64,000 nt of DNA from the NCBI GenBank assembly GCA_021791715.1, contig JAJYWB010000002.1:124001-188000 (forward strand), given 5' to 3'. The number at the start of each line of letters is the position of its first letter. The stretch's first letter is position 1. Shown here piece by piece: positions 7,291-63,862 of the stretch. The translations under genes and the position numbers were made by a program. This DNA is from Planctomycetota bacterium. GTDB taxonomy: Bacteria; Planctomycetota; Planctomycetia; Isosphaerales; Isosphaeraceae. The notes under the pieces were generated by a model that saw nothing but the letters and a program-made list of their open reading frames with translations, was not told where the DNA came from and ran no database searches.

Positions 7291-7620
7291 TTGATAGGTT
7301 ATCCCGAAAGAAAACCGTGAATTCGGCGGGAATTGAGGGCGAACACGAAATTGGGAGGGCGAACCTCCTGGTGAGCCGTATTAAGATGTTTGCGATTATT
7401 GACCGAAAAATCCGCCACTTCTCATGAGTTTATGAAAAGAGGCTCACCAGGAGGTTCGCCCTCCCAAATAGAAAGAATCGAACATCTAGGTTCGTTACAT
7501 CTCCCAAATAGAAAGAATCGAACATCTAGGTTTGTTACATCTCCCAAATAGAAAGAATCGAACATCTAGGTTTGTTACATCTAGTGGTTTTATTGGTGAA
7601 TTGGCGCCGAAACCGGTATA
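7291..7620 (+). repeat. Dispersed inverted-repeat element, copy A
   Basis: The element has an outer end resembling GGTTATCCCGAAAGAAAACC, then a left arm (7353-7377, starting GGGAGGGCGAACCTCC), a 63-base loop, and a perfectly complementary right arm (7441-7465). After a short tandem array it ends with the conserved tail TTATTGGTGAAT...GGCGCCGAAACCGGTA. The same arms and flanks recur at four other places in the window. No open reading frame is associated with it. It resembles a non-autonomous mobile element or a REP/BIME-like repeat. Confidence 0.8.
7461..7580 (+). repeat. Three tandem 40-bp units inside repeat copy A
   Basis: Three consecutive 40-base units begin at 7461, 7501 and 7541, differing by a single base (TTCG versus TTTG). 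Each starts with the last bases of the right inverted-repeat arm (CTCCC) and continues AAATAGAAAGAATCGAAC. The array is an expansion of the element's right flank; repeat copy C has a single unit. Confidence 0.9.
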
Positions 7621-12075: not shown

Positions 12076-12350
12076 AGAGGCTATCCGGAAAGAAAACCGC
12101 ATATTCGGCGGTTTTCACGGTGTATCATCTCATCGGGAGGGCGAACCTCCCGGTGAGCCGGCTTGATATGATTTATTCCCTATGCGATTAAAACCTCCCA
12201 TTCAATAGGGATTTACAAAACGAGGCTCACCGTGAGGTTCGCCCTCCCAAAAGAAAATAATAGCATGTGTGTATGCATAGAATATAATAATTATACTGAT
12301 AATATGAGGCTAAAAACTTAAAATCAAGCCGAGATCGATACGATGGAGTT
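12076..12350 (+). repeat. Dispersed inverted-repeat element, copy B
   Basis: The outer end reads GAGGCTATCCGGAAAGAAAA, then come left arm 12135-12159, a 64-base loop and right arm 12224-12248 with one mismatch to perfect complementarity. The right-hand tail (AAATCAAGCCGAGATCGATA followed by CGATGGA) matches that of copy D rather than copies A and C, so two sub-families seem to exist. It lies between convergent rnr and the zinc-ribbon gene. Confidence 0.75.
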
Positions 12351-26558: not shown

Positions 26559-26817
26559 TACCGGTTTCGGCGCCGATTCACCAATAAAACAAACATATTA
26601 TATAAGTATAGATGTCTGTTCTTTCTATTTGGGCGAACCTCCAGGTGAGCCTCCATTCGTAAACTCAGGCTACGAAGCGGTTTTCGACATCAAGAAAATT
26701 AAACATAAGAATGCGGCTCACCAGGAGGTTCGCACTCCCATAAGAGATCGCCCTCCCAATTTTAGGTTCGCACTCGGTTCCCGCCGAATACGCGGCGTTC
26801 TTTCCGGAATGGCTCGC
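26559..26817 (-). repeat. Dispersed inverted-repeat element, copy C (inverted orientation)
   Basis: Read on the minus strand it matches copy A: outer end with TTCCGGAAAGAACGCCGCG, arm 26715-26739, a 63-base loop, a shortened arm at 26631-26651, AAATAGAAAGAA, and the GGCGCCGAAACCGGTA tail near 26559. An extra partial arm (26749-26760, CGCCCTCCCAA) suggests a small internal duplication. It fills most of the 26293-26857 gap between the porin and cytochrome genes, whose remainder shows nothing else. Confidence 0.75.
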
Positions 26818-26857: not shown

Positions 26858-28729
26858 TTACAATGTTTTAAGGTAAGCGATCAGGTCGGCGATTTCGGAA
26901 TCGGAGAGAGGTTCGCCGCCGCTTACGGTTTCGGGGCCGTGGGGTCCTTTGAGCATCTCGCGCAAGGTCGCGGATCGGCCGTCGTGGAGATACGGATCTT
27001 TATCGTAAACGCCGCGAAGCGAGGGGGTGTTGAACCCGCGATACACATCATACGACTCTTCCAGCCCCACAATGTGAATTTTGCCGTCGGTGAATTCGGG
27101 CCCTTTATGGCAGGTTGCGCACGCGGCCTTCGCCGAACGGAAGATCGATTCGCCCCGTTTCGCCGCGTCCGAGAGCGAACCGTCGGGCTCGCGATTCGGA
27201 TTGGGAGGATAATCGAGCGTTCCCAGATACGCGACGACCGCCTTCGCTTCCTCGGCCGATGGAGCGGGTCCGCGCATGCTTTTGGTGAACGATTCGACCG
27301 TCGCCTGTTCCAGGCTTTTCTGCCATCCGTGCCAAGTCCACGGCGCGGTGAAGGAGACGCGTCGCAACGTGGGGACTTTTTTCCTGCTCTTTAAATGCGC
27401 TGTGCTTAAATCTTGATATCCGTCGTTGAGCGTATCAAAATCGAGTCCGTCGGTGTGTCCGTCGGAATGGCATGTGTTGCAGCTATACCATTGATTGAAC
27501 GAACGCCGTGCCTCGTGGAAGAGGATCTCGCCGCGTCGAGCGAGCGAGGGCTCGCTCGGTCCGCCGAGTTCGATCGTCCGCGCGAGCTCGGCCTTCTCGC
27601 AATCTACTATTTGTATGGAATTGTTCAAATAATTGGCGACATATAAAGTTTTATGATCGGGAGCGAAAGCGAGTTCGGTCGGCCTGCCGCCGAGATCGAC
27701 GCGGCGGAATCGACCGTCGTTTTTGAGCAGTTCTTGCGGAATCAGATCGCGCGAATTACCCGTGCGCCAGGGGAGTTCGCCGAGATCGGTCCGGAACAGC
27801 AACACCTCGTGCGTTCCGCCGCACGAAACCGCCAAAAGCCGTCCGTCGCCGCCGATCGCGACGCCGTGCGCGTCGGCGGTCGCCTTGCCGCGCGGGTCGA
27901 GCGAAAGCGTGTCGAAGGGAGAATCGTCGACCAGCGAAACGCGGGTCAATCGTTGACCCAATACCCAACCCAAATCGATATGATTGGAAACGGTTGCGAA
28001 TCCACGATTCTTCATCCCGGCGATATAAGCGAATTTGCCTTCCTTATCGATCGCCGCCTGCCGCAGATTGTCGCCGTCGATCGGAATCGTTCGCGTGATC
28101 TGAAAATCACTTGTGTTGATTAAAGATACGTTTCGCGAACGCGAATTGCCGACGAGAATCGTCGCGCCGTCGGCCGAGATCGCGATTCCGCGCGGCTCGC
28201 GTCCGACGGTCAATCGACCCGTCGTCGCAAGCGTGGGAAGATCGACGCGAACGACCTCGTTCGCCGCCCCGACGGCTGCGTAAGCCGTTTTACCGTCGGG
28301 AGAAAGAACGACCCCGCGCGGTTCGGCGCCGATCTTCACGCGGCCGGCGATCTTCATCCGATCGCCTTCGATACGAATCATCGCGAGATCATATCCATAC
28401 CAATGAGTGACGACGGCGATCGTTCCGTCGCGGGTGATCGCGATTCCCGCGGGCTTTTCTCCGGTGACGATCTCGTCCAAAACTCGGCCCGCGGCGAGAT
28501 CGACGAGCGCGACCGAATTTGAAGTTTGATTCGCCGTGACGAGTTTGGATCCGTCGGCGGAGAGCGCGAGGGCGATCGGCGATCGATCGGATTCGGCGGG
28601 GATGATCGCCGGAATCGATCGGTCTCGATCCGAAGCGATCGCGTCGCGAGGTTTGCCGTCGCCCGCCCAAGAATCGCTCGGCGAGCCGAACATTGGAGCC
28701 AAAAGCGTGAGAATCGCGAGGAATCGCAT
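26858..28729 (-). CDS. Exported YVTN beta-propeller / di-haem cytochrome c protein
   Basis: This 623-residue protein has a signal peptide (MRFLAILTLLAPMFGS), an N-terminal YVTN-type seven-bladed beta-propeller (about 45-400, blades such as SADGSKLVTANQTSNSVALVDL and SPDGKTAYAAVGAANEVVRVDL), and a C-terminal part with two haem-attachment motifs, CNTCH and CATCH. The C-terminal end resembles MauG/cytochrome-c-peroxidase-like proteins (GFNTPSLRGVYDKDPYLHDGR). A periplasmic electron-transfer or peroxidase role is likely; the donor is unknown. The start is set at 28729, with GGGAGG about ten bases upstream, which gives a clean signal peptide. Confidence 0.85.
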   Translation of the reverse strand: MRFLAILTLLAPMFGSPSDSWAGDGKPRDAIASDRDRSIPAIIPAESDRSPIALALSADGSKLVTANQTSNSVALVDLAAGRVLDEIVTGEKPAGIAITRDGTIAVVTHWYGYDLAMIRIEGDRMKIAGRVKIGAEPRGVVLSPDGKTAYAAVGAANEVVRVDLPTLATTGRLTVGREPRGIAISADGATILVGNSRSRNVSLINTSDFQITRTIPIDGDNLRQAAIDKEGKFAYIAGMKNRGFATVSNHIDLGWVLGQRLTRVSLVDDSPFDTLSLDPRGKATADAHGVAIGGDGRLLAVSCGGTHEVLLFRTDLGELPWRTGNSRDLIPQELLKNDGRFRRVDLGGRPTELAFAPDHKTLYVANYLNNSIQIVDCEKAELARTIELGGPSEPSLARRGEILFHEARRSFNQWYSCNTCHSDGHTDGLDFDTLNDGYQDLSTAHLKSRKKVPTLRRVSFTAPWTWHGWQKSLEQATVESFTKSMRGPAPSAEEAKAVVAYLGTLDYPPNPNREPDGSLSDAAKRGESIFRSAKAACATCHKGPEFTDGKIHIVGLEESYDVYRGFNTPSLRGVYDKDPYLHDGRSATLREMLKGPHGPETVSGGEPLSDSEIADLIAYLKTL

Positions 28730-29032
28730 CAAGGGAAAGCCTCCCGGCGGATCTTCCGGCGTGATATTCGGCGGAAACGAGGCGGATCGTCGACCCCTTT
28801 CGGGCGGATCGTCGATCACGGTCGATCGCGAGCACGCGAGTGTTCGACGATTTTTCTAGCAGACGTAAGAATAGCCGCTCGGGGAGGGGTTCGACAAGAT
28901 TTCCGCGCGAGATCGCGATCAAGGGCGACGGGGAAACGACTCGCTCCGCGAGTTTTTTATAACGCGAGCGACCGCGGCGCCGCGCCCGCCCGATTCATGA
29001 ATCAAGTAGAATGCATATACATAGAAGTAAGT

Positions 29033-29350
29033 AACCGGCCCGGGACGGGAAACCCACGCGGGTCGATGCGACTCGTCCCTGAGCGATCGAGATCCGCTCG
29101 GTCATTTGTCCCAAATCACTCGGGTTTCCCATCCCAAGCCGGTTCATTGCCAAACTGGAACACGTACGCGGTGAGAATCACCCGCCTGCTGAACCAGTGT
29201 CTCGAACCAAGAGCCCCTCAAGCGAACGTCGGTTGAGAGGATCGAGATTGCGCGAGAACAGCTTTGTATAGCTGAAAGCTCGCGCGGTATACGGGGTCGA
29301 CCGGTAGAACTAAGCCGATGTCCGGCTTTGGATCGGCCGTACTTGCTTAA
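29033..29350 (-). ncRNA. Candidate large structured RNA, unknown family
   Basis: About 318 bases carry no credible gene but a chain of stems. Stem pairs are 29312-29317/29323-29328; 29250-29256/29279-29285 with an inner 29259-29262/29271-29274; 29217-29221/29233-29237; and 29154-29158/29194-29198 enclosing 29168-29174/29178-29185. The 3' domain is a long stem, 29033-29055/29122-29144, holding a further hairpin at 29081-29085/29095-29099. In the long stem, three C-A mismatches on the plus strand become G-U pairs on the minus strand, which assigns the direction. A good promoter lies just upstream. It does not show the signatures of tmRNA, RNase P, SRP RNA or 6S RNA. Confidence 0.6.
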
Positions 29351-29356
29351 TTGAAA

Positions 29357-29384
29357 AGCATAACGCCGCCGTTCTAGGTGTCAA
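29357..29384 (-). promoter_or_regulatory. Sigma-70-type promoter of the structured RNA
   Basis: On the minus strand a perfect TTGACA (29379-29384) is followed after 16 bases by TATGCT (29357-29362). Predicted transcription start is about 29350, exactly where the folded region begins. Confidence 0.55.
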
Positions 29385-29402
29385 TAATCAACCGGGTCGA
29401 TT

Positions 29403-30023
29403 TTATGGAATTTTTCGACGCGATCGTTCGAGTCGGTTGGGGCTGGCAACGCCGTCGAGTGTTTGATCGTGCGGTTCTTTGGGAAGAACTTCGACCCACT
29501 GTTCGTTGAAAGCGAGCGCCCAGCGTGCCGCGGCCTGATTCAAAAGGGGCAGGAGGCGGTCGTAATAGCCCGCGCCGCGGCCGAGACGATCGCAAGCCTT
29601 GTCGAACGCGATTCCCGGTATGAGCGCCCAGTCGATCTCCTGAGGCGGTATTTCGACGAGATTACGATCGGGTTCGGGAATGCCGAGCGAGCCCGGTTTC
29701 AGATCGGTTGAGGGATCGCGAATCTCGTGGAGCACGAGCCTCCGCTCGCGTCGATTCACTCGCGGACACGCGACGCGTTTGCCTTCATCGAGCGCCGAAG
29801 CGATCAGCGGCCGCGTGTCGATCTCCTCGGGTAAAGCGCCCACGTAAAGGAGGACGGTTGCGGCTTGAGCGTAACCCGGAAGCCGGCTGAATAAGGCCGG
29901 CATCAGACGCTCTTGTTCGGCTCGGTCGCGCGGCGCCAACGCCAAAACACGACCGATCACCTCGCGGCGCAGCGCGCTTTTAAGAGTAGCGATTTCGGCG
30001 GGGGGAAGCGAAGAATCACTCAA
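29403..30023 (-). CDS. fau: 5-formyltetrahydrofolate cyclo-ligase (MTHFS)
   Basis: This 206-residue cytoplasmic enzyme uses ATP to turn 5-formyl-THF into 5,10-methenyl-THF, keeping the folate one-carbon pool active. Characteristic segments are LKSALRREVIGR at the N-terminus, VLLYVGALPEEIDTRPL, and the signature GIAFDKACDRLGRGAGYYDRLL around residues 138-160. The start seems to be TTG (30023), as no ATG or GTG fits the family N-terminus and no ribosome site is evident. It lies 27 bases downstream of the 6S RNA gene on the same strand, the same arrangement as ssrS-ygfA in enterobacteria, so processing from one transcript is possible. Confidence 0.9.
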   Translation of the reverse strand: MSDSSLPPAEIATLKSALRREVIGRVLALAPRDRAEQERLMPALFSRLPGYAQAATVLLYVGALPEEIDTRPLIASALDEGKRVACPRVNRRERRLVLHEIRDPSTDLKPGSLGIPEPDRNLVEIPPQEIDWALIPGIAFDKACDRLGRGAGYYDRLLPLLNQAAARWALAFNEQWVEVLPKEPHDQTLDGVASPNRLERSRRKIP

Positions 30024-30050
30024 ACATATGAACCAAATGAGAAGGTAAAG

Positions 30051-30220
30051 AAAAAAACCTCCACCGCAATGCCGTTAGGATGCTTTTGAGAACCCGCAGT
30101 TCAAGTGGGGAGCTAAGGCGCCGGGCTCGAAGCCGAAGAGCCTTGAATAAAGTCCCCAACGGGTTTATTCGTTGGTTCGCCAAAAGGAACATCCTTGACG
30201 AACATGGCAGAGGTTTTTTT
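30051..30220 (-). ncRNA. ssrS: 6S RNA
   Basis: On the minus strand the ends form the closing stem: A7 + CCTCTGCC (30206-30220) pairs fully with GGTGGAGG + T7 (30051-30065), counting two G-U pairs. The 3' half contains CACTTGAACTGCGGGTTCTC, closely matching the CACCTTGAACCAAGGGTTC region of the E. coli 6S RNA. A mostly paired rod with a central open region fits 6S RNA, which traps housekeeping RNA polymerase. Its length of about 156-170 bases is slightly short. The T7 tract also makes the closing stem look like an intrinsic terminator. fau follows directly. Confidence 0.85.
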
Positions 30221-30243
30221 GTCCGGACGAGCCGAACAATAAG

Positions 30244-30272
30244 ATCGTAGTCGCGCTCGGTCGGAGGTGCAA
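30244..30272 (-). promoter_or_regulatory. Promoter of 6S RNA
   Basis: On the minus strand, TTGCAC (30267-30272), a 17-base spacer and TACGAT (30244-30249). The predicted start near 30237 is about 17 bases upstream of the A7/CCTCTGCC stem, so a short 5' leader may be processed away. Confidence 0.5.
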
Positions 30273-30452
30273 GCGGGAATCGACCGAAACAGGAGGAAAC
30301 GTTCGGTCGAAAGCATTGAATCTTCGCGACCCGCGCGATCGTCGCTTTCGCAACGCCGCGAATCGAGCCGAAACGCGATCGCTCCGGCCGCGCCGAAGAC
30401 GGATTTCGGAACAACACGTATTGTTATCTAGAATACAGCGAATCAGGATATT

Positions 30453-45016: not shown

Positions 45017-45071
45017 CGCCGATGATATCGTTATGCTGTGTTTTCGCACGTTAATAATATCATAATAATAC

Positions 45072-45295
45072 GGCTCACCAGGAGGTTCGCCCTCCCAAAT
45101 AAAGGTTCGCCGTTCTCAATAAAGGATCGCCGTTCCAAATAAAGGTTCACCGTTCCAAATAAAGATTCGCCGTTCCCAATAAAGGATCGCCGTTCCCAAT
45201 AAAGGATCGCCGTTCCCAATAAAGGTTCGCCGTTCCAATCGAAAATTCGACGTCAAATCCCGCGGATGTGCGGTGTTCCTTCCGGATCGCCTCTG
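45072..45295 (-). repeat. Dispersed inverted-repeat element, copy E (half element with 20-bp array)
   Basis: A single perfect arm (45072-45096) is followed by seven tandem 20-base units (45101-45240; typical unit AAAGGTTCGCCGTTCCCAAT). The element's outer end, read on the minus strand as GATCCGGAAGGAACACCGCA, follows. The loop side continues for about 50 bases with the usual TATTATTATG start, but the second arm is missing because the methyltransferase gene ends there. The 20-base unit derives from the arm end. Confidence 0.75.
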
Positions 45296-47212: not shown

Positions 47213-47475
47213 AAAATGAATTCCGCGAATTCCGCGGGTTTTCATCCTGGTTCCTAAATTGGGAGGGCGAACCTCCTGGTGAGCCATATTATCATTTGTA
47301 TTATTATTGTTTGAGGAACATAGCCGTTCGGCGGCGATTCCGATAAGAGGCTCACCGGGAGGTTCGCCCTCCCAAGCATGGAAAACTGAATGTGATATTG
47401 CTTAACATCTATTGATATAGCTGATATAATTCGCTGAAAACCGTAAAAACAAGCCGAGACGAAACGATGGAATAT
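47213..47475 (+). repeat. Dispersed inverted-repeat element, copy D
   Basis: The outer end reads CTATCCGAAAATGAATTCCG, with left arm 47261-47285, a 63-base loop and right arm 47349-47373 (one G-for-A difference from copy A). The tail AAACAAGCCGAGACGAAACG matches copy B. It stops just 17 bases short of the tRNA-Gln 3' end. Confidence 0.78.
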
Positions 47476-49167: not shown

Positions 49168-49638
49168 TTAAACTCCTTCGATATTTCCGTCGAAGACGGT
49201 TTCGGCGTCGCTGACGACACCGTGGAGGATCGCCGCGGCGTCTTCTTCGGAGAGATTGAGCAGTTCGCGGATTTCGTCGAGTCGATCGTGTTCGCTCGGG
49301 GTGACGACGCGATCGGCGACGATGCGTCGAATCGCCCAGGCGAATTCTTCGCGTTTGCACGCGAGCGCCCAATCGGGGTCGAGATCGAGGGCTTTTTCGT
49401 CGGCTTCGAGGTTTGCGAATTCGGCCTGAGTTCGCGGATAAAGCTCGACCGCGCGGCGGAGTTTTCGCCGCCACTGCTCGCGATCGTAATCGGTTGTGGA
49501 AGCGGACGAAGACTTCGCGGCGGCTTCGGGCGAAAGCGTAACGCCGCTTTGCGCTCCGGGGTCGGGACGTTTGGCGTTGATCCCGGAAAGAGCGTGTCGA
49601 TCCTCAAGCACGCGCTTCAACCTGTCGAGAAATCTCAT
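49168..49638 (-). CDS. TerB-like helical protein
   Basis: A 156-residue soluble protein. After a polar linker, the C-terminal half (residues about 95-155) reads FAWAIRRIVADRVVTPSEHDRL...LLNLSEEDAAAILHGVVSDAE, the acidic helical pattern of TerB-like/DnaJ-associated domains. AAGGA stands eight bases before the ATG. It lies just downstream of the beta-lactamase-like gene, overlapping its nominal frame by 35 bases but not its likely frameshifted frame. Function unknown. Confidence 0.7.
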   Translation of the reverse strand: MRFLDRLKRVLEDRHALSGINAKRPDPGAQSGVTLSPEAAAKSSSASTTDYDREQWRRKLRRAVELYPRTQAEFANLEADEKALDLDPDWALACKREEFAWAIRRIVADRVVTPSEHDRLDEIRELLNLSEEDAAAILHGVVSDAETVFDGNIEGV

Positions 49639-50797
49639 CGGACGATTCCTTATAGAAAGAACTCTTCATCGAGAAGAACGATCGGCTTCGAATCGGCTCG
49701 TTTTGGGAGCGACCGAGTTCGGCGTGTAGGATTCGGCGGTGTCGGATCGTCCGCGGTTCGAATCGGGTCGATGAGTCGCCGAGGCGATCGTCGGGCCGGT
49801 TTTGAACGCGGGAACGTACGCCGCGGGGGTTTTCGCGGCGTCGGCCGGGGGCGACCGATCGGCATGTTTCGCCGCGTCGGTTTTCCCTTCCCCTTCCTTT
49901 TTTTCGGGCTTGGGGGGGATTGAAGAAATCATACACCGAGCGGGCGACCTGGGCGCAAAGCCGATTCCCCGCGTTGTCGGGCGCGTAACGCTTATCTTCG
50001 TTGTCTTTGGTTAAAACGCAAAGCGCGATCGGCCCGGCGGGGGTGTATAAAATCCCCGCGGCGGTGCGAATCTCGTCGACGCTTCCCGTTTTGAAAGCGA
50101 CCTTCACGCCAGGGGGGAGAAAACGCGGGAATTTATCTTTATCATCGCATGCTTTTAAATGCTCAAGCATCGCTTCGCATGCTTCTTTGGATACAAGTTC
50201 TTTTTTGTGGAGTTTTTCACACAAGGCGATCATATCGGCGGCGGTCGTGCTTCCGAGGCCGAATTTTTTGCTTCGGTCGGGGAAGATCGAGGTATCGCGG
50301 CGGTAAACTTTGGAGTGGATTTTGGTGTTCGGCATGCCGAGCGATTCCATCCGTTTGGCGGTGGAATCGAGGCCGATCTGGTCGAGCACGAGGTTGGTCG
50401 CGGTGTTGTCGGAATAAACGATCATGAGGTGGACGGCGTCGACCAGGGGGAAGGTCGTTCCGTCGGAAAAATGATACGTGAGAATGCCCGATCCGGGAAC
50501 TTTGTCGGCTTTTTTGAGGGTGATCGTTTTGGCGAGGTCGATTTTGTGATCGGCGGCCTGGAAGTAGGTTTCGATCATCACGGCGAGCTTGATGAGGCTC
50601 GCGGTGGGCATCGGCTCGGTTGCGTTGAGGTTGTACGAGACTCCGGTATCGAGGTGTTTGACGGCGATCGCGACCTTCCCCTTGTGTGCGTCGACGAGCG
50701 GTTTGAGGACCGATTCGAGAGTCGCCTCGGCGGCGGTTAAGATCGCGGGAGTTCCCGCGAAGAGACCGATCAAGACAATCCAGTGGAGCGTTTTCAT
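49604..50797 (-). CDS. Class A beta-lactamase-like serine hydrolase, 3' end frameshifted
   Basis: The product has a signal peptide (TLHWIVLIGLFAGTPAILTA) and a class A-type domain of about 270 residues with all three motifs: SLIK in TASLIKLAVMIE, SDN in YSDNTATN, and KTG in VAFKTGSVDE. Up to VYDFFNPP the frame is convincing. After a seven-base C/G tract (49912-49918) it turns arginine-rich and runs into the TerB-like gene. The other frame from the same tract (PKPEKKEGEGKTDAAKHADR and on to a stop at 49666) reads naturally and stops before that gene, so a one-base indel, phase-variable tract or sequencing error is likely. GTG at 50800 is an alternative start. Confidence 0.8.
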   Translation of the reverse strand: MKTLHWIVLIGLFAGTPAILTAAEATLESVLKPLVDAHKGKVAIAVKHLDTGVSYNLNATEPMPTASLIKLAVMIETYFQAADHKIDLAKTITLKKADKVPGSGILTYHFSDGTTFPLVDAVHLMIVYSDNTATNLVLDQIGLDSTAKRMESLGMPNTKIHSKVYRRDTSIFPDRSKKFGLGSTTAADMIALCEKLHKKELVSKEACEAMLEHLKACDDKDKFPRFLPPGVKVAFKTGSVDEIRTAAGILYTPAGPIALCVLTKDNEDKRYAPDNAGNRLCAQVARSVYDFFNPPQARKKGRGRENRRGETCRSVAPGRRRENPRGVRSRVQNRPDDRLGDSSTRFEPRTIRHRRILHAELGRSQNEPIRSRSFFSMKSSFYKESSDEISRQVEARA

Positions 50798-51370
50798 CAC
50801 GTATCCGCCGAGGTTTCGGGTGAATCGATCGTTCGGCGTTCGCCCGAGTTAAGGCGACGACGCGGTTCCAAAACGGAAGAGCGAACGTCATTCATTATGC
50901 CGGCGGCGCGGGTTTCGTCTCAAGCGGCGTGCGAGCGAGATCGGCGGGATCGATCCTCGATTCGCTGCGGATTCGGGTCGGTCGACCCCGACGAACGCCG
51001 AACGATCGCGCGTCGGTTTCAGCCGTCGGTCGTGTTATCAAATAAAAATCAATATTAAATCAAAATAAAATTAGATTTAACTGTTAGTTAATCAGAAGGA
51101 TTTAGAAATTCGCATTTATTAGTTCTTGAGCGCGGATCGGATCGACTTCGATCGGCGCTCGGGAGGGGGTCGTTTCTCGTCGCCCGAGCGTTTCGTTTCG
51201 CGGTCGATCGCGGAGGGGACGGGGATTCGCTGAGAGCGACCGAAACCGCGGCTTTGAATCGGTGTTCGATGATTGTGGAGTTCGGTTTGTCCGCGAGCTT
51301 TCGTTCGAGGATGAGCGTCTTCGCTCGGTCTTTCCAGGAATGAATCGGCTGTTTTGAAGGAGTCGACACG
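50798..51370. other. Intergenic region with AT-rich patch
   Basis: No gene is supportable. A sharply AT-rich segment (about 51035-51105) stands out against the local composition and may be the promoter region of the small secreted protein gene. Confidence 0.35.
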
Positions 51371-56806: not shown

Positions 56807-56892
56807 CGATACTTCGCGGAATCGATGTTAAAAGAACGACGCGAGCGGATGAAGAATCAAAACCTGCGAAGCGGAACGCTGAAAATTCCAAT

Positions 56893-57705
56893 ATGAAGAC
56901 GCGAGCGGATGAAGATTCCAAAATGACGACGCGAGCGACTGGAGACGCGGGGAGTAGGACGCGAACGGATGAAGATTCCAAAATGACGACGCGAGCGACT
57001 GGAGACGCGGGGAGTAGGACGCGAACGGATGAAGATTCCAAAATGACGACGCGAGCGACTGGAGACGCGGGGAGTACGACGCGGGTTTATCTTGTTCGGC
57101 ACGGGTCGACCGCGGCGAATCGCGACGTTCCGTATCGCCTGCAGGGTCGAGGGAGCGATCATCCGCTCGACGCGACGGGTCGGTCGCAGGCGCTCGCGGC
57201 GGCCACTGCTCTGGCGAAAGCGCCGATCGTCGCGGTTTATACGAGCCCGCTTCGAAGGGCGCGCGAAACCGCGTGCGCGATCGCGCGAGCTTCGGGGCTC
57301 GAGCCTGTCGAACTCGCCGCACTCGTCGAGGCCGATCTTGGACGCTGGGAAGGATTAACATGGGATGAGGTGAAAGAACGTTATCCCCAGGAATTCGATC
57401 GCTTCATGGCGAATCCTGGAACGGTTCCTTATCTTGAGGGAGAGTCGTTCGCCGAAGTTCGGATACGAGCTCTGGGAGCGATCGATCGGATCGTCGAGGC
57501 GCATCGCGGTCGATCGGTCGTCGTCGCGGCGCACAACGTCGTCAACCGCGCTCTCCTTTCGGGATGGCTCGGATCGCCGATCGATCGCGCGCGGTCGATC
57601 CGCCAGGCGAACGGCGGAATCAACCTCGTCGAGTTCGAAGGCGATCGGGCGACCGTCGTGATGATGAATTCGATTTTGCACTTGTTGGGAATCGAATCAC
57701 ATTGA
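56893..57705 (+). CDS. Histidine phosphatase family protein (PGM/CobC-like) with repeat-built N-terminus
   Basis: The core domain starts at TTRVYLVRHGSTAANRD, with the catalytic RHG histidine, LRRARETACAIA, EADLGRWEGLTWDEV and the second histidine in VVAAHNVVNRALL; CobC, phosphoglycerate mutase-like or alpha-ribazole phosphatase roles fit. The region before it is made of a 20-residue repeat (DEDSKMTTRATGDAGS core) encoded by 60-bp DNA repeats. In-frame ATGs stand at 56893, 56923, 56983 and 57043; the last gives a normal-length protein of 220 residues. Each repeat also holds a tiny ATG frame (MKIP) whose stop overlaps the in-frame ATG. No obvious ribosome site identifies the true start. Confidence 0.8.
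   Translation: MKTRADEDSKMTTRATGDAGSRTRTDEDSKMTTRATGDAGSRTRTDEDSKMTTRATGDAGSTTRVYLVRHGSTAANRDVPYRLQGRGSDHPLDATGRSQALAAATALAKAPIVAVYTSPLRRARETACAIARASGLEPVELAALVEADLGRWEGLTWDEVKERYPQEFDRFMANPGTVPYLEGESFAEVRIRALGAIDRIVEAHRGRSVVVAAHNVVNRALLSGWLGSPIDRARSIRQANGGINLVEFEGDRATVVMMNSILHLLGIESH
56907..57076 (+). repeat. 60-bp tandem repeat, three copies, at the phosphatase start
   Basis: Units starting CGGATGAAGATTCCAAAATG begin at 56907, 56967 and 57027, and the three are essentially identical; diverged material of the same kind extends upstream to about 56836. As 60 is a multiple of three, the repeat stays in frame with the phosphatase. It overlaps the 5' part of the gene. Confidence 0.92.
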
Positions 57706-61366: not shown

Positions 61367-63862
61367 CTAGCGGAGGATCCGTCGCGGTCGGGCGTCTTCG
61401 GGAAGCAGAATCGTTCGACCGACCGGGAGGTTATCGGGATCGTCGATCAAGTCTTTGTTCATTTCAAGAATTTCTCGTGATCGAGCGACGTCTCCCAACA
61501 TGTCGCGGGCGATGCTTCGGATCGTATCGTAACGTTTTACGACATATTTTTGAGGGATCGGTCCTTCGGGCATGTCTTCAAAGCTCACTCGGCGTTTGGG
61601 GCGACGAACGGTCGAGCGGATCTCGGTCGGTTCGGCGATTGGTTCGGCGCGTTCGTCTTGATCGTCGAGGCGATCCGAGGAGACCCGAGCGATTGAACCG
61701 CCGCGCGTCGATCCCGATTTTTTCGCGATCCCGACGCGATTCGATCGATCGGGAAGCGGCGCCAATCCCGCGGGAGGCTCGATCAACGCGGGATCGAGCG
61801 CCTCGGGAGGAGGGATTCGCAAAGCCGTACCGACATATAATCGATCAATTGCAGGAACTCGGTCGCGATTCGCCGCCCAGAGGGCTTTGTAATACCTTCC
61901 CGAATCATAATAAAGGCGTGAAATCGTCCAGAAGTTTTCACCTCGTTCGACGACGTGACGGATCGGCTCGCGCGAGTCGACATCCGAATCGGTCGCTTCG
62001 TCGTTTGATTCGTTCGCCTCGGCGGTTGCGGCGGGCGGGTTCGACGCGTGCGTAACGATCGTCGCGGCGGGGGGAGAGCTCGGCTGAGATACGATCGTGT
62101 CGGACGATCGCACCGGGTTTTCGTTCAGGCTAGACCCGAATTCTCGATCGTTCGCGGCGAGTAAATCGCGTCGACCCGTCGCGTTGGGGATCGGGATCCA
62201 ATCTCCCGTGTTCATCGCCGACGAGTCGATCGATCGCGACGGCGAAGGGTCCGCCGGATTGTGATTCAATGGATTCGCATGCGTTGACTCCGCCGACGGT
62301 TCGGTCCGCGAATCCCGCGACGGATCGTTGACGATCGCATTGGCCGATCCGCGATCAAAGGCGGCGGGGTTCGGCTGCGCCGGATCGATTTTATCGGCGG
62401 GCGGAGGAGCGACCGGGTTCGACGAATTTACATCGATGGAATTACGATTCTCTTTTGCGTTTACAGGAAAAGACTCGTTACGCGTCGATTGAACGGCGGG
62501 GACGGCTGTCGTCGGCTTCGGTTCGTCGGGATTTTGCGCGAGCGGCTGCGCGGCTTGTTTTTGATCGTTCGAGTTGGGCGGTTCGACGGGATTTTGCGCG
62601 AGCGGCTGCGCGGCTTGTTTTTGATCGTTCGAGTTGGGCGGTTCGACGGGATTTTGCGCGATCGGCGGCGCGAGCGGTTTTTGATCGTTTGAGTTGGGCG
62701 GTTCGACGGGATTTTGCGCGATCGGCGGCGCGGCTTGTTTTTGATCGTTCGCGGGTGTGTTCGGCGAATCGATCGTCGCGGGTTGAGGCGCGGCCGCCGG
62801 GGGTAATTCGTTCGAGGCCGGCGACGGCGGCGGCGCGGGTAACGGACCGCTCGACCCCGCCGGTACCGGCGCGGGAGCGATCGGATCGGCGGACGGGGGA
62901 GCGACGACGGGCGCCTCGTTCGCCGCGACGATCGATGCTTCCGCGGATTTCGCCTGAGAATCGTCGCCCTTTGAAGGCCGATTATCGACTCCCTGTTTTG
63001 TATCAACAGATGAGTTGTTAGAGGATAAACTTGTTTGAGTGTTCGCTTGAGCGTTTTCGGGATTCGGCGCGGCCGGGGGGTCGGCGGCTTTATCCTGTGG
63101 TTTTTTGGGGGATTCTTTCGCCGAGGTTTCGGCGATCTTGGCGTCGTCGTTCGTCTTGGCGGATTCGGTCGAGGTTGAAGATCCGGTCGTATTCTTATCG
63201 GTTGAAGGTTTTTGATCGCCGTTCGCCGCGGTCGACCGCTCGCCCGGCTTCGATTCGTCGATCGACGCGGGAATCGCCGCGGGATCGGGTCGAGGGTCTG
63301 AAGGCGTTTGCGAAGACGAAGCGGGTTGAGATTCGTCGTTCGACGCGATCACGACGGGTTCTTCGGAATTCGGCGCGATCGCCGAGTCGTGCTCGCTCCC
63401 CTTCGCCGATTCGCCGCCGTTCGAGGTCGGATTTGAAGCGTGAGGAGTATTTTTGTTGTCGATATCGCTCGTCTTTTCATCCGAAGCGTTTTTATCGTCT
63501 GCTTGATCATCGTTTTTTGGATCTTTGGATGCGTCGTCGGCCGAGGCGACCGAGAGAGCATGCGGCTTGACCTTATGTTGTTTGATCAAGACGACTCCGA
63601 CGAGGATCGCGCCCGAGACGATCGCCGAAATCAGATAACGATTTTTCATGCTCAAAAAACGACCGTTCGATGCGTCCGATGCGATCGGTTCGGTCGTCTC
63701 GTCGAAGCCCGCCGCGGTCGGGTCGACGATCGGTTCGCCGCCGGCGGGGTGAAACGTCGGCGCGGTAAGCGGAGTCCCTGGAATCGAAGTTGGGACCGAC
63801 GACGGTACGGACGACGGAACGCCGATCAATCCTTCGGCCGGATTTGCTTCGTATTCAGGCAT
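61367..63862 (-). CDS. Membrane-anchored LysM protein with long low-complexity linker
   Basis: An 831-residue protein. A Pro/Thr-rich cytoplasmic N-terminus of about 70 residues is followed by a single helix (YLISAIVSGAILVGVVLI, about 75-92). A very long disordered Ser/Asn/Asp/Pro/Ala region comes next, including four 20-residue repeats (NPVEPPNSNDQKQAAQPLAQ type, about 365-445). Two C-terminal LysM domains follow: HVVERGENFWTISRLYYDSG (about 632-680) and YVVKRYDTIRSIARDMLGD (about 771-820). LysM binds peptidoglycan or chitin-like glycans, so it may link the inner membrane to the wall. The start at 63862 overlaps the end of rsmH by 37 bases, the position ftsL takes in many bacteria. Confidence 0.85.
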   Translation of the reverse strand: MPEYEANPAEGLIGVPSSVPSSVPTSIPGTPLTAPTFHPAGGEPIVDPTAAGFDETTEPIASDASNGRFLSMKNRYLISAIVSGAILVGVVLIKQHKVKPHALSVASADDASKDPKNDDQADDKNASDEKTSDIDNKNTPHASNPTSNGGESAKGSEHDSAIAPNSEEPVVIASNDESQPASSSQTPSDPRPDPAAIPASIDESKPGERSTAANGDQKPSTDKNTTGSSTSTESAKTNDDAKIAETSAKESPKKPQDKAADPPAAPNPENAQANTQTSLSSNNSSVDTKQGVDNRPSKGDDSQAKSAEASIVAANEAPVVAPPSADPIAPAPVPAGSSGPLPAPPPSPASNELPPAAAPQPATIDSPNTPANDQKQAAPPIAQNPVEPPNSNDQKPLAPPIAQNPVEPPNSNDQKQAAQPLAQNPVEPPNSNDQKQAAQPLAQNPDEPKPTTAVPAVQSTRNESFPVNAKENRNSIDVNSSNPVAPPPADKIDPAQPNPAAFDRGSANAIVNDPSRDSRTEPSAESTHANPLNHNPADPSPSRSIDSSAMNTGDWIPIPNATGRRDLLAANDREFGSSLNENPVRSSDTIVSQPSSPPAATIVTHASNPPAATAEANESNDEATDSDVDSREPIRHVVERGENFWTISRLYYDSGRYYKALWAANRDRVPAIDRLYVGTALRIPPPEALDPALIEPPAGLAPLPDRSNRVGIAKKSGSTRGGSIARVSSDRLDDQDERAEPIAEPTEIRSTVRRPKRRVSFEDMPEGPIPQKYVVKRYDTIRSIARDMLGDVARSREILEMNKDLIDDPDNLPVGRTILLPEDARPRRILR
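62521..62760 (-). repeat. 60-bp coding repeat inside the LysM gene
   Basis: Four consecutive 60-base units (starting 62521, 62581, 62641, 62701) share the sequence GGGATTTTGCGCGA and GTTTTTGATCGTTCGAGTTG (T for C in one unit). They encode 20-residue Pro/Asn/Gln repeats in the extracytoplasmic linker. The high nucleotide identity suggests recent expansion. Confidence 0.9.

Follow-up and report, generated by a model that had tools for sequence, protein, structure and literature searches.

The gene for 5-formyltetrahydrofolate cyclo-ligase, fau (ygfA), is known to stand beside that for 6S RNA in several other phyla (PMC9130861). The same arrangement is found in the window analyzed here (by which we mean the whole 64-kb stretch of DNA, from a member of the Isosphaeraceae), where 6S RNA lies upstream of fau (Table 1), and the order of the two is kept across Isosphaeraceae. 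Homologues of this 6S RNA were found by blastn in 41 of 45 Isosphaeraceae genomes, and in 25 of the 26 that are of good quality. The match to the Rfam 6S model in the window scores 46.3 bits, just short of the 46.4-bit cut-off, and at seven of the 20 Isosphaeraceae fau loci scanned there is a 6S match above the cut-off, so the model seems to underscore the 6S RNAs of this family. The annotation of 6S RNA beside fau is a firm by-product of the analysis.

The genes across 24.5-32.6 kb of the window are those for a porin, a protein with YncE-like and cytochrome domains (here called the cytochrome gene), Fau, a UVR protein, and a DUF4912 protein. Behind the fau stop at 29403 lies a candidate structured element, and about 300 nt separate it from the cytochrome gene, which starts at 28729. 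In the fau loci of relatives that were read, another coding sequence follows close behind fau; fau and the cytochrome gene are far apart in relatives, and orthologues of the latter are present in Isosphaeraceae, none of them close to fau. The fau-cytochrome junction that carries the element is lineage-specific and is not syntenic with relatives of the source genome, one of which within the family is Singulisphaera sp. GP187. A protein search of genome contigs returned relatives of the cytochrome protein at no more than 68% identity, with no congener among them, and the corresponding search with the Fau protein found nothing.

Table 1. Features of the fau-cytochrome junction and its flanks, in window coordinates
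Feature	Position	Strand	Basis
YncE-like beta-propeller + cytochrome c peroxidase domains, next gene downstream of candidate	26858..28729	-	
Candidate structured RNA, ~325 nt (strand inferred)	29025..29352	-	fold z, no Rfam match, single copy in genome
Terminal helix, 3' strand TACTTACTT	29025..29033	-	
Uninterrupted rod, 23-24 bp, 66-nt apical region	29033..29144	-	z -6.5 minus, -5.7 plus
Hairpin ACTGG/CCAGT, inner GGTGA/TCACC	29154..29198	-	
Hairpin TCTCGA/TCGAGA around CCTCTCAA/TTGAGGGG	29199..29248	-	
Hairpin GCGCGAG/CTCGCGC, inner CAGCT/AGCTG	29250..29285	-	
5' hairpin domain GTACGG...CCGTAT around AAGCCG/CGGCTT	29289..29342	-	minus-strand MFE = centroid for 29205-29352
Terminal helix, 5' strand AAGCAAGTA, one C-A mismatch on minus	29340..29348	-	
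Sigma-70-like promoter TTGACA-16-TATGCT; expected start ~29348-29352	29357..29384	-	sequence match
fau, 5-formyltetrahydrofolate cyclo-ligase	29403..30023	-	PF01812, E 7e-34
6S RNA, upstream of fau	30054..30216	-	RF00013, 46.3 bits vs cut-off 46.4, E 3e-8

The initial annotation had described a 23-position stem in which three C-A mismatches of the plus strand become G-U pairs on the minus strand, and this was confirmed: the rod arms (29033-29055/29122-29144) are 23 nt long and form 20 Watson-Crick pairs, and at the other three positions the plus strand has C-A and the minus strand G-U. The further stems that it had noted, free of any open reading frame, were also seen, at 29154-29348; they include 29247-29256/29279-29288, 29214-29221/29233-29240, 29199-29205/29242-29248, and 29308-29338, and the ends of the element can form a terminal helix of nine pairs (29025-29033/29340-29348). 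No reading frame across the element is convincing or long enough to fill it. A possible switch, in which the 5' segment CCGATCCAAAGCCGG would pair instead with the 5' arm of the rod, was rejected as not significant, since 8% of shuffles were equally good.

On neither strand does any shuffle reach the predicted fold energy of the whole element (z -4.8 minus, -5.4 plus), and in a sliding scan of the window the element (z -5.75 minus, -5.89 plus) forms the strongest peak outside the dispersed palindromes. Without the rod, the 5' domain still gives a z of -4.1 on the minus strand, while the apical region of the rod folded alone gives about -0.4. Inverted repeats with at least 20 of 23 positions paired number six in the window, four of them dispersed repeats, and none in three 64-kb dinucleotide shuffles (192 kb in total). 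The element is a nonrandom, structured one; a fold predicted from a single sequence cannot, however, serve as evidence that an RNA has a functional structure (Rivas 2021, PMC8250186).

The G-U pairs of the rod had been taken to show that the minus strand is the transcribed one. The pairs themselves are real, but in other helices the G-U pairs fall on the plus strand (the terminal helix, the extension of the 29247-29288 hairpin, and the hairpin at 29058-29077), and because the element as a whole folds equally strongly on both strands, the argument does not set the strand. The neighboring 6S RNA is strand-asymmetric in the same sliding scan (-4.7 versus -2.5). The minus strand is nevertheless the likely one for the candidate, because of the promoter and of a 5' domain that is better defined on that strand, where its predicted MFE equals the centroid (29205-29352) and its mean entropy is 0.34, as against 0.65 on plus.

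A promoter claimed at the predicted start just past the fau stop is indeed there (TTGACA-16-TATGCT, 29384-29357 on the minus strand); it stands 18 nt beyond that stop, lines up with the beginning of the terminal helix, and is the only promoter-like site within 28800-30400. Minus-strand promoter sites with at least ten of 12 positions matched number five in the 64-kb window, this one among them. No terminator was found between the element and the cytochrome gene.

Comparison with Rfam over 28700-29700 gave no match at gathering thresholds and, at a permissive E of 10, two chance matches above E 5, so that the Infernal search proposed earlier yielded no known family at either setting. The statement that the element bears no tmRNA, RNase P, SRP, or 6S signature likewise holds, inasmuch as no covariance model matches it and all four RNAs are present elsewhere in the genome, tmRNA (135 bits), RNase P (288 bits), and small SRP (60 bits) being on other contigs.

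The element is single copy in its own genome by blastn, and the same program found no homologue in 44 other Isosphaeraceae genomes, 397 others of the class, or 391 others of the phylum (sets of 45, 398, and 392 counting the source genome), nor in plasmids and phages; the 41 of 45 family genomes with 6S RNA came from an identical search that served as the positive control. Exact-pattern scans of viral contigs gave no match. A single-sequence covariance model returned from the family genomes and 38 relatives only the source element and palindrome noise, and returned nothing at fau loci or upstream of cytochrome orthologues. The homologous fau-downstream regions from which the initial annotation proposed to build a covariance model were thus found neither by blastn nor by the single-sequence model. 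Among the weak matches of the class search, the two examined were the best short ones (L033 and L036); both overlap long reading frames, the L033 match lying inside a plausible protein gene, and they have nothing more in common with the element and were taken as chance. The only congener assembly is 68% complete and has no 6S, fau, or cytochrome orthologue, so the absence of the element from it carries no weight. The undescribed planctomycete RNA class suggested at the outset is not established, because no homologue was found in the family, class, or phylum genomes and hence there is no covariation to compare.

We put at about even the chance that the element is a structured noncoding RNA, restricted to a genus or species and provided with its own promoter. 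This reading is favored because the element forms the strongest fold peak outside repeats, has a 5' domain that is significant without the rod, carries a promoter at its start, has neither an Rfam match nor an open reading frame, and is not a dispersed repeat; it is weakened by the absence of a homologue, by a plus-strand fold of equal strength (unlike that of 6S RNA), and by the lack of a terminator. Such an RNA would be about 325 nt long and read from the minus strand, starting at a sigma-70-type promoter of its own that stands 18 nt past the fau stop. Its 5' part would form three or four hairpins, the 24-bp rod would come after them, and the nine-pair terminal helix might close the whole; the product would work in trans, as a stable RNA or RNP. 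Because there is no U-tract terminator, the 3' end would most probably be generated by processing. An uninterrupted rod of 24 bp is of sufficient length for cleavage by RNase III.

Palindromes abound in the source genome. One dispersed palindromic repeat, GGGAGGGCGAACCTCCTGGTGAGCC...GGCTCACCAGGAGGTTCGCCCTCCC, whose arm (GGCGAACCTCCNGGTGAGCC) has 1,188 matches in the 6.5-Mb genome, lies at 7351-7467, 12135-12250, 26631-26740, 45062-45098, and 47259-47375 of the window, and it often forms tandem arrays and often lies near contig ends. A second, AACCCGACGCGCGAGCGAGGG...CCCTCGCTCGCGCGTCGGGTT, with a loop of 46-56 nt, was seen in a sampled 464 kb (L109:1096-1193, L112:3315-3402, L114:16131-16218, L115:12174-12267, and L116:8452-8539). 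The window also holds a long inverted repeat at 50826-51008 (20/23, loop about 140 nt), directly upstream of a minus-strand beta-lactamase-like gene at 49604-50800, and tandem repeats at 7461-7582 (40-nt unit), 45083-45242 (20-nt), 56838-57083 (30-nt), and 62519-62811 (60-nt).

Against this background, the main rival to an RNA gene is a single-copy palindromic DNA element, such as a REP/MITE-like remnant or some other insertion, which we regard as possible but doubtful. It would explain the strand symmetry of the fold, because the symmetry of a palindrome makes both strands fold, and for dispersed palindromes, too (7141, 12081, and 47081), the z values of the two strands are equal. The repeats are shaped like the rod (in both families the arms measure 21-27 nt and the loops about 45-65 nt; in the rod they measure 23 and 66 nt), and the non-syntenic junction would suit an insertion. 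On the other hand, the rod arms differ in sequence from both families and have a single match in the genome, which rules out membership in either; no target-site duplication is visible by eye; the stems on the 5' side of the rod reach significance without it; and a good promoter stands in line with the start.

We consider it improbable that the element instead belongs to the cytochrome gene, as an extended, structured 5' leader that controls it in cis. The gene is on the same strand, about 300 nt away with no terminator in between, and the promoter lies upstream as a leader would require; yet in 18 relatives the orthologues are preceded by no such structure, the rod's apical portion does not fold in any special way, and closer to the cytochrome gene there is a weaker promoter-like site (TTGTCG-18-TATTCT). 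It is very unlikely that Rfam missed a strongly diverged representative of some known family, since, although the size would suit tmRNA, RNase P, or a large SRP, the genome has its tmRNA, RNase P, small SRP, and 6S elsewhere and no Rfam match falls below E 5 at permissive settings.

If the noncoding RNA that we favor is transcribed, the phylum, whose RNA biology has received little attention, would have in it a large structured RNA that is specific to one lineage and lies beside 6S-fau. More tentatively, it may be the founder of a class of large structured RNAs at the level of a genus within Isosphaeraceae, self-transcribed beside 6S-fau and without a relative among the described families. The locus also shows that in a palindrome-rich genome strong folding alone is no proof of an RNA gene.

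Several known systems resemble the candidate in part. It shares with the REP/MITE-like palindromes of the source genome an intergenic position, the dimensions of arms and loop, and folding on both strands, and differs from them in its single copy, unrelated arms, extra stems, and promoter. The likeness to a retron msr-msd RNA is one of appearance only (terminal inverted repeats, and several hairpins with a long one 3' of them), and a retron was rejected, there being no reverse transcriptase in the five neighboring genes scanned and no match in Rfam. Like 6S RNA, the candidate is long and rod-like and lies next to fau on the same strand, but the genuine 6S copy is separate (30054-30216), the 6S model does not match the candidate, and the candidate's rod lacks a central bubble. 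OLE, ROOL, GOLLD, and raiA differ from it in that it has neither an Rfam match nor any phylogenetic distribution; if it is an RNA gene, it would nonetheless be, like them, a long, structured RNA with a transcription unit of its own.
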